Origin: Massilibacillus massiliensis | GTDB lineage: Bacteria; Bacillota; Negativicutes; FLKF01 | NCBI RefSeq assembly: GCF_900086705.1 | Contig: NZ_LT575483.1 | Coordinates: forward strand, 2,201,894 to 2,265,893 | Reading direction: 5' to 3' | DNA: 64,000 nucleotides | Shown here: piece by piece, positions 8,131 through 43,489 of the stretch | Position numbering within the stretch: the first letter of the stretch is position 1 | Layout of the letters: each line of letters begins with the position of its first letter | Notes under the pieces: model-generated | The model's database searches: none | Told to the model about the DNA's origin: nothing | What the model saw: only the letters and a program-made list of their open reading frames with translations | Translations under genes and position numbers: made by a program

Positions 8131-8193
8131 AAAGTAATAGACGTTCTTAGCAACTTACATAATGGAATAAGGATACAAAAAAATATAGGATAG

Positions 8194-8266
8194 TTGGCAA
8201 ATTTATCGAAAGGTAAAGACGCAAAGCTATGGGTCTAAAGATGATTAAGTCAATGACTGCCAAGCC
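8194..8266 (+). promoter_or_regulatory. Cyclic di-GMP-I (GEMM-I) riboswitch aptamer
   Basis: The GEMM-I landmarks are all present in order: TTGGCAAA, a GAAA tetraloop-like turn, the highly conserved GACGCAAAGC, GGGTC, and AATGACTGCCA. TTGGCA (8194-8199) and TGCCAA (8258-8263) form P1. The aptamer lies in the leader of a chemoreceptor gene, one of the classic targets of this class. Confidence 0.93.
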
Positions 8267-8308
8267 GCATTTATGTATATGCTTTGTAGTTTGTTGACTT
8301 ATTTTTTA
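8247..8308 (+). terminator. Riboswitch-controlled terminator (expression platform)
   Basis: AAGTCAA (8247-8253) pairs with TTGACTT (8294-8300). Inside that, ACTGCCAAGC (8256-8265) pairs with GCTTTGTAGT (8281-8290) apart from one mismatch, and T residues follow. This stem uses the same bases as the 3' arm of aptamer P1. Ligand binding should therefore prevent termination, so the arrangement reads as a genetic ON switch. Confidence 0.8.
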
Positions 8309-24604: not shown

Positions 24605-24737
24605 AGCGTGTAGACAAATCATATATTTATGTTGATAACTTAGAAAAAACCGAAATTCGTTCCACTTATAAACTAGTACGAAGATGAGTGCTTATCGCCG
24701 ACCCGCAACCTATCTGTCCATAGTTTGTCTACACGCT
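24605..24737. repeat. Structured repeat element, short form, bounded by 14-bp inverted repeats
   Basis: AGCGTGTAGACAAA (24605-24618) and TTTGTCTACACGCT (24724-24737) are a perfect inverted pair. The core between them matches the core of the longer element at 43221-43450 (GTTGATAA...TTAGAAAA, TAGTACGAAGAT, then GAGTGCTTATC-CCGACCCGC and ATCTGTC). The short form lacks 108 bases present in the long one. It contains no open frame. It could be a mobile repeat or a folded RNA. Confidence 0.75.
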
Positions 24738-24738
24738 G

Positions 24739-24777
24739 GGCGTTGTATTTCTTGTTAAAGAAATGCAACGCCTTTTT
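24739..24777 (+). terminator. Terminator of the amino-acid ABC operon
   Basis: GGCGTTGTATTTC (24739-24751) pairs with GAAATGCAACGCC (24760-24772) with one mismatch, followed by TTTTT. Confidence 0.88.
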
Positions 24778-36984: not shown

Positions 36985-37056
36985 AACCTATCTTAGTACT
37001 AGATTACAAGTAAAACGGTTCTTTTGAAAAAGTAAGAATACGAGGGAAGTTTTATT

Positions 37057-43100: not shown

Positions 43101-43171
43101 TAACACTGCTTGTTTTACCAACCATGTATGCTGCTTGGTTTAAAGTAAAAGAACCGAATGAAAAAGGCTAG
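40112..43171 (+). CDS. RND multidrug/solute efflux transporter
   Basis: A 1019-residue AcrB-family pump with 12 expected helices and two large periplasmic loops. Seen: a first helix near residue 14, FTIRQMVVTVAWPGAS, GLLVDDAIIAVE with the proton-relay acidic residues in TM4, and a C-terminal LRFRPIMLTAAAAILGMIPL. Length is slightly under the HAE1 norm, closer to the HAE2/YerP-like or Firmicute AcrB group. Its ATG overlaps the adaptor stop codon. Substrates are unknown. Confidence 0.93.
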   Translation: MKKFNLTEIALKNKSLVCYFILVIFLMGCFSYTKLGRMEDPEFTIRQMVVTVAWPGASAKQIEEQVTDKIEKKLQDLPGMDYLKSYSRPGASVIYVTLREDTKASTIRSTWLEARNLVNDMKADLPQGVIGPTFNDRFDDVYGSIYAITADGYSYEEMRVEAEKIRQMLFDIDNVKKVELIGQQAEKIYIEIENSKLAQLGINPSTIANVIAKQNAMTPAGMLDTSTDNVYLRMTGQFDDIEAIRNLPIQANERIFRLGDIATVERKYVEPAEPKMYFNGQPAVGIAVSMESGGNVLDLGDDLKKTVNLIKKDLPLGLEIHQASDQPEVVKDAIDDFISTLREAIIIVLVVSFLSLGVRTGLVVALCIPLVITGVFLAMEMLGIDLHKVSLGALIISLGLLVDDAIIAVEMMAVKLEEGYDRFKAACYAYTVTALPMLTGTLITCAGFIPVGFSKGMAAEFTSSLFPVIAIALIISWVVSVMVAPLFGYHLIKVKVHDTSKENKAYQSKFYKMFRRILTWCLQHRRIVLVGTAICFFVSIFMMKFIKQEFFPPSIRPEVIVELNLPEGASIKATEDAAKQFAARLDGDAAIKNYSFYVGKGAPRFVLTTEPVLPANNYAQFIIVAKDLDARKQLTEKIQTIMAEDMPGVRSNVKLIQTGPPAAYPVMLRVSGYDHEKVREIANQVAEKMTANPNLRQVHFDWNEKSKVMQLDLDQDKLRVLGIDGQSLATALQTQLSGAAVAEYYEQDKTIDIVFRMHDEDRSDLSKVKDMPIAIGNGSYVPLEQIAKIRYGAEDGLIWRRDLKPTITVRANIMDGITGNDATQQVYDATKELRDSLPMGYTVKVDGALENSGKAMRLMLAPVPAMIIVIVTLLMLQLKRMSLMFLTLMTAPLGIIGVSFGMLLTNQSMGFVAELGILALSGMIIRNSVILVDQIEKHIADGQDVWQAIIDSAILRFRPIMLTAAAAILGMIPLMRNNFWGPMAVAIASGLFCATVLTLLVLPTMYAAWFKVKEPNEKG

Positions 43172-43183
43172 GTAAAAAACTAA

Positions 43184-43215
43184 GGGGTATGTCACATCTT
43201 AATGTGGCATACCCC
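43184..43215 (+). terminator. Hairpin after the efflux operon
   Basis: GGGGTATGTCACAT pairs with ATGTGGCATACCCC with one mismatch. No T-run follows, so it may protect mRNA or end transcription weakly. Confidence 0.5.
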
Positions 43216-43220
43216 AAACT

Positions 43221-43450
43221 CTAGAAAAATAACATATTCATGTTGATAATTTAGAAAATAACGAAAGCCGTTCTACTTAAAAATTAGTACGAAGATAGGT
43301 TGCCGGTTGGTGAGAAGTGCTCAGATGCTAGGCACAGAAAGAGGTTGTGAAGAAGTCGTACTTCTGTACTAGGGCGAGCAGCATCTTTCTGTAACGACGC
43401 AGATGAGTGCTTATCACCGACCCGCTGCCGATCTGTCTATGTTTCTTAGG
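43221..43450. repeat. Structured repeat element, long form
   Basis: Shares its flanking core with the element at 24605-24737 but has 108 additional bases (43297-43404). Arms 43298-43323 and 43404-43429 form a 26-position hairpin in which 19 positions are Watson-Crick and four are G-U. Inside, GATGCT/AGCATC (43324-43329 with 43380-43385) and ACAGAAAGA/TCTTTCTGT (43334-43342 with 43384-43392) are mutually exclusive or form a pseudoknot. G-U pairing suggests a functional RNA. No coding frame is present. Confidence 0.75.
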
Positions 43451-43489
43451 AACAGGATAATATGGTATGATATAATATAGGGAGAATTT

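Follow-up and report, generated by a model that had tools for sequence, protein, structure and literature searches.

An intergenic hairpin of Massilibacillus massiliensis as a probable member of a family of non-autonomous mobile repeats found across bacterial phyla

What kind of element is the long hairpin at 43221-43450 of the window, the stretch of 64,000 nucleotides of Massilibacillus massiliensis DNA analysed here? A preliminary description had proposed a structured non-coding repeat with mutually exclusive inner helices, possibly an undescribed small RNA or a repeat mobilised in trans. Our analysis indicates that the element probably belongs to a family of non-autonomous mobile repeats, the unit of which is a hairpin whose sense strand must fold. 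The unit inserts discretely, has spread to many copies, is under selection for one folded strand and is sited with a marked bias.

The window copy and its fold

The siting had been described correctly as intergenic and non-coding: an AcrB-type RND gene, ending at 43171, lies on one side and a DNA-alkylation-repair gene on the other. The long outer helix with its G-U pairs is likewise present where it had been placed (Table 1), and the RNA fold of the + strand reaches -76.8 kcal/mol (z = -4.85), a value equalled by 0 of 200 dinucleotide shuffles, against -55 (z = -2.67) for the - strand. As for the two inner helices, which were thought to cross and thereby to form a pseudoknot or alternative states, the one formed by ACAGAAAGA and TCTTTCTGT is genuine, its pairing being kept by compensatory changes among sister copies, but all of GATGCT/AGCATC can pair in no more than 3 of 28 sisters, and the alternative-state reading is therefore rejected. 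Most sister copies have AGCACC, which leaves a mismatch; the pairing in the window copy is a chance match.

Table 1. Parts of the window copy and related pieces in the window
Feature	Position	Strand	Basis
Hairpin GGGGTATGTCACATCTTAATGTGGCATACCCC immediately left of the element	43184..43215	+	sequence
Left end, decayed version of the family end CAGACTGTAGACAAAT	43216..43230	+	copy alignment
Left accessory module (..TTCTACTTAAAAATTAGTACGA), strongly kept among own-genome copies	43231..43292	+	alignment
Outer helix, 5' arm (AGATAGGTTGCCGGTTGGTGAGAAGTGCTC)	43293..43322	+	fold; covariation
Core, match to covariance model R1 (87.0 bits, E 3.8e-22)	43307..43420	+	
Conserved 5' internal-loop motif AGATGCTAGGC, nearly invariant (in part fixed by the exact search pattern)	43323..43333	+	copy comparison
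Inner helix, 5' arm ACAGAAAGA	43334..43342	+	compensatory changes
Tip hairpin CGTAC..GTAC	43357..43369	+	covariation
Inner helix, 3' arm TCTTTCTGT	43384..43392	+	compensatory changes
Conserved 3' motif AACGACGCAGAT, opposite AGATGCTAGGC with tandem G.A	43393..43404	+	
Outer helix, 3' arm, terminating in GATCTGTC	43405..43437	+	fold
Right end, decayed (family version CATAGTTTGTCTACACGCTG)	43438..43455	+	copy alignment
Short copy; left module and both ends kept, core deleted between AGAT repeats	24605..24738	+	
Left-module remnant, 34 bp, 82% match	36985..37018	-	sequence

The reported match of the flanks to 24605-24737 is genuine, with 84% identity across 75 bp and 86% across 49 bp. This short copy lacks the core, and at its join GAAGAT directly meets GAGTGC; the missing part would be bounded by AGAT within GAAGATAGG on one side and within GCAGATGAG on the other. 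To judge from these letters it is apparently an internal-deletion derivative that arose through AGAT microhomology (GAAGAT...CAGAT), and the notion that it supplies a second arm to the window element was rejected in favour of this origin. A terminator-like hairpin, GGCGTTGTATTTCTTGTTAAAGAAATGCAACGCC, followed by a T-run, lies to the right of the short copy (24739-24772, + strand). Elsewhere the window holds a c-di-GMP-I riboswitch (8186-8272, + strand; 69.4 bits, E 1.6e-11). The window copy itself has grown by accretion: it has gained additional arms, and its MITE-like ends have decayed.

In other lineages it is the core, not the ends, that is conserved. The core is an imperfect hairpin of about 115-118 nt with a long outer stem, a nearly invariant tip and two conserved internal loops, AGATGCTAGGC/AACNACGCAGAT and GNAG.CGTAC/GTACG..GA. 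The invariance of AGATGCTAGGC and of CGTACT..GTACG in the first set of copies is in part a product of the search pattern, and the tip also takes the form CATAC/GTATG in copies that the model found in Sporomusa. The preliminary description had proposed a covariance model as a check for compensatory change, and such change is abundant: in 62 diverse copies, 89.8% of the cells pair against 71.4% in shuffles, both sides have changed in 335 cells against 104, and the covariation score of 0.493 drops to 0.155 on shuffling and to at most 0.106 when the partners are slid. The result was repeated on 123 model-selected matches, the alignment of which leans to structure.

The outer helix is moreover asymmetric between the strands, with 118 G-U against 19 A-C across phyla and 148 against 9 in the M. 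massiliensis genome, where the sense strand folds better in 59 of 59 copies (mean -78.1 against -59.0 kcal/mol). The wobble excess and the better sense folds tell which strand is folded, not whether it is RNA or single-stranded DNA; clearly it is the sense strand. The covariation and the G-U to A-C asymmetry support the selection on RNA proposed earlier, or at the least selection acting on a single folded strand. In some copies of Selenomonadales SL1-B47 and of a Bacillota bin (L093, L111 and L131), the 3' arm contains a nested structured insert (GTTCTTAGCGC...CCCCTTGCGGGT) before GCAGATG.

Copy number, spread and siting

The search for further copies in the source genome and its relatives, also suggested at the outset, was productive in both. 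In its own genome, covariance model R1 finds 60 full-length core copies, each with E <= 1.4e-11, and BLAST at least 40; none of the 60 contains a protein-coding ORF of its own, the overlapping frames being few, short and mechanical. On a wider scale, R1 has matches in 32 of the 60 class members sampled, in 8 of the phylum's 119 genomes and in 39 of the 99 from the phylum of Pseudodesulfovibrio pelocollis; P. pelocollis itself has 50 copies, a Methylomirabilota bin at least 148 and a Selenomonadales bin at least 150. A scan of 84,980 species genomes with an exact pattern extended the range to about ten phylum-level groups among the matches listed, which include Negativicutes (Sporomusa, Pelosinus, Massilibacillus), Deltaproteobacteria, P. 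pelocollis, Rokubacteria, Methylomirabilota, Acidobacteria, Gemmatimonadetes, Elusimicrobia, Bacteroidales, Clostridia, Patescibacteria (Zambryskibacteria, Kaiserbacteria) and Betaproteobacteria (Acidovorax, Roseateles); many of these are bins from metagenomes, which may contain binning errors, and several are isolates. The own-genome consensus had no match in plasmids and phages, and an Acidovorax copy used as query gave just two plasmid hits.

The copies are not placed at random with respect to genes. Five own-genome copies lie in rRNA operons, all five in sense orientation, three of them in the 16S-23S spacer or at the start of the 23S gene and two ahead of 5S genes. Of the 55 others, 45 have an opposite-strand gene whose stop codon is at most 90 nt from their right end (at most 40 nt in 35 cases), while a sense gene end at the left is the only nearby gene end for 5 (two-sided p = 4e-9 against the 45); the window copy, behind the RND gene, is one of the sense exceptions. 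In Sporomusa, rRNA and tRNA operons hold 25 of 30 loci, 25 of 25 in sense, which makes 30 of 30 for the operon copies examined in the two. Behind genes in other phyla, 40 sense copies stand against 51 antisense, closer to even than in M. massiliensis. In the latter, the GC skew switches sign near 2.1 Mb and the orientation of the element reverses there as well, so that orientation tracks leading-strand genes. Copies are absent from 3.87 Mb via the contig ends to 0.92 Mb, a stretch of about 1 Mb facing the origin inferred from the skew; all 60 lie elsewhere. To the left of many copies (L228 and L255, for example) stands a second repeat array, composed of CCTTCGGAACGTATTTTTCCGGAAAAGGCC and a long hairpin AAAAATGACCGGCTTAC...GTAAGCCGGTCATTTTT, also with terminators CTGCCGCATTAAAATGCGGCAG, and stacked behind the same gene ends as the element copies.

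Mobility and its possible agents

Does the unit move? When a Sporomusa tRNA cluster was used as query, individual junctions were recovered both with and without the element. In genome G004 the junction reads ...ATTAGTGTCT, 118 bp of element, GTTGTATTG..., twice, in two paralogous clusters; in G023 the same junction is empty (...ATTAGTGTCTGTTGTATTG...), with zero bases duplicated between the two states, this being the one insertion site followed to base level. G060, which is near G023 at the neighbouring junction, retains a remnant of the right arm at the 118-bp junction, so the clean state of G023 could be a precise loss; its junction may thus have been ancestrally empty or precisely emptied. 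Under either history the 118-bp unit acts as a discrete insert. The neighbouring junction shows the reverse distribution, being filled in G023 and G060 and empty in G004 and G053. Mobilisation in trans, one of the two possibilities raised in the preliminary description, is supported by this exact insertion polymorphism between Sporomusa species and by the some 60 own-genome copies without a mobility-protein ORF.

How such a unit might spread can be sketched from these data. A trans-acting enzyme would recognise the folded sense strand, as RNA or single-stranded DNA, by its conserved loops and insert it into non-coding spacers, and selection would then retain the copies at harmless sites. These would be the spacers of rRNA and tRNA operons, in sense, and here mostly the stretch from stop codon to terminator of protein genes, in antisense. 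A sense hairpin in a messenger would presumably be cut, or would part the message from its terminator, while in rRNA and tRNA precursors such cutting would do no harm. No mobilising enzyme or autonomous partner was found among the Y1/RAYT and IS1182 loci of the copy-bearing genomes. The repeat offers a testable route to the putative enzyme, which seems to read a folded strand. It is also conceivable, though we give it little credence, that the sense RNA, which rRNA- and tRNA-operon copies would yield in abundance, is itself the mobile intermediate of a SINE-like, RNA-level parasite across phyla, re-entering transcribed spacers by being copied or spliced back without target duplication.

The same siting invites another explanation, namely that the element is a cis-acting RNA hairpin of the host, such as a processing site (for instance for RNase III) or a 3'-end stabiliser, which is kept and duplicated for the host's benefit and whose dispersal is secondary. 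The uniform sense orientation in all 30 rRNA- and tRNA-operon copies examined, the compensatory changes that preserve the structure and the copies directly behind stop codons would all suit such a role. However, its patchiness, with 8 of 119 genomes of the phylum and from 0 to at least 150 copies inside one class, speaks against it, as do the antisense placement at most 3' ends, where the best-folding strand is not the gene's transcript, and the orthologous tRNA junctions with clean loss or absence. We thus consider a host function of this kind rather unlikely.

A mobile family could also be a MITE of a DDE transposon, for instance of the IS1182 family, inserting at terminators. This possibility is raised by an outer layer of the M. 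massiliensis copies, which carry extra arms and the left module around the core and in a subset have inverted ends, CAGACTGTAGACAAA...TTTGTCTACACGCTG. The leading 8 bases of CAGACTGTAGACAAA resemble the end CAGACTGTGTGAAAA of the resident IS1182, in this genome only, and several end-bearing copies are flanked on both sides by near-identical terminator-like hairpins, in the manner of a long target duplication (AATGTCGCATTGTTCATGCGACACC on either side of L231, 25 bp exact; AAATAAGTCGCACAATGTGCGACTTATTT on either side of L272, 29 bp). Yet the ends are limited to one subset of copies, while the unit conserved across phyla is the internal hairpin; the resolved Sporomusa site has no duplication, and several copy-rich genomes have no IS1182. 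IS1182 loci had no core copies apart from one chance neighbour, and IS1182, present in some hosts, appears an unlikely mobiliser: its ends are only partly alike, and those of Sporomusa IS1182 (GGGGCTGTCGCG) differ from the Sporomusa copies. A MITE origin of the family is therefore improbable, and the ends and duplicated hairpins look like a second, MITE-like layer on the mobile hairpin; as the 25-29-bp duplicated hairpins misfit the duplication-free Sporomusa site, two mechanisms may have been at work. One IS1182 copy (G000:C6:3770154-3771536), with ends CAGACTGTGTGAAAA/TTTTCACACAGTCTG, is interrupted near its right end by an IS256-like element.

Movement of a folded single strand is, in turn, what a RAYT (Y1) transposase would bring about in a REPIN-like element, and the family shares with REPIN/RAYT systems (PMC3116915) a non-autonomous hairpin unit with compensatory changes, as well as conserved mismatches, high copy number, single-strand asymmetry and lack of target duplication; several host genomes have RAYT-sized Y1 genes, and Y1 occurs in 12 of 16 copy-bearing genomes. 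While REPs adjoin their RAYT (PMC3116915), none of 29 Y1 loci has a core copy within about 1.5 kb, and neither P. pelocollis, with 50 copies, nor another bin with 133 copies has any Y1 match. The present element is also larger and asymmetric, with conserved loops, and its halves, the 5' motif AGATGCTAGGC and the 3' motif AACNACGCAGAT, do not represent one short palindrome in two inverted copies, so that this origin appears very improbable. Group IIC introns, considered because of the siting at terminators, were dismissed, as no Rfam intron family gave a match and the copies are mostly antisense.

Relation to known repeats and RNAs

Short dispersed bacterial repeats, such as ERIC, NEMIS, BOX and BRE, are usually described per genus. 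The family characterised here is largely undescribed as a whole. Among small dispersed mobile repeats it is unusual in how far it extends across phyla: its internal loops and fold remain the same from Patescibacteria to Negativicutes and Proteobacteria, with at least 150 copies per chromosome in some, and a single model makes this common, mostly unannotated chromosome component recognisable. A search for its sequence motifs in the text of papers returned nothing relevant. The BRE of Bordetella and relatives, including Acidovorax, are multicopy, chromosomal, intergenic repeats of 75-91 bp, sometimes in tandem, which overlap gene ends by a few bases, vary between strains and give transcripts detected on Northern blots (PMC3110155). 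The family resembles them in size, siting and hosts (Acidovorax), a comparison by description alone that claims no identity; the published account of BRE is restricted to a single class and gives no structure, whereas the present family spans many phyla and has a covarying fold. Correia/NEMIS elements are short non-autonomous hairpins near genes as well, mobile by comparative evidence, with transcripts that RNase III cuts or binds (PMC2649163). They are confined to Neisseria, defined by their ends, inserted at TA (or CA) and of other sequence, while the family has a conserved internal core, differing ends, a distribution over many phyla and a resolved Sporomusa site without duplication. The 'multicopy nucleotide sequences' of Geobacter, compared by description alone, were set aside, no identity being shown.

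The attribute 'undescribed', largely right for the family, does not hold for half of the element in its betaproteobacterial relatives, which is in Rfam as sX9 (RF02228), a Xanthomonas sRNA of 76 nt. Against the window copy, the Rfam covariance models gave chance hits only, and sX9 did not match. In Betaproteobacteria, by contrast, sX9 overlaps family copies in Acidovorax (38.3 and 53.3 bits) and Roseateles (29.7 bits), one place passing its gathering score (53.3 against 44 bits), and R1 independently finds the sX9 places on the opposite strand. While modelled as a small RNA, sX9 is thus the antisense half of the betaproteobacterial relatives, one half of the repeat read backwards, which cautions against annotating pieces of this repeat as sRNAs. 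It ranks among the 20 most prevalent bacterial sRNAs (PMC9029176), a prevalence as expected of a repeat.
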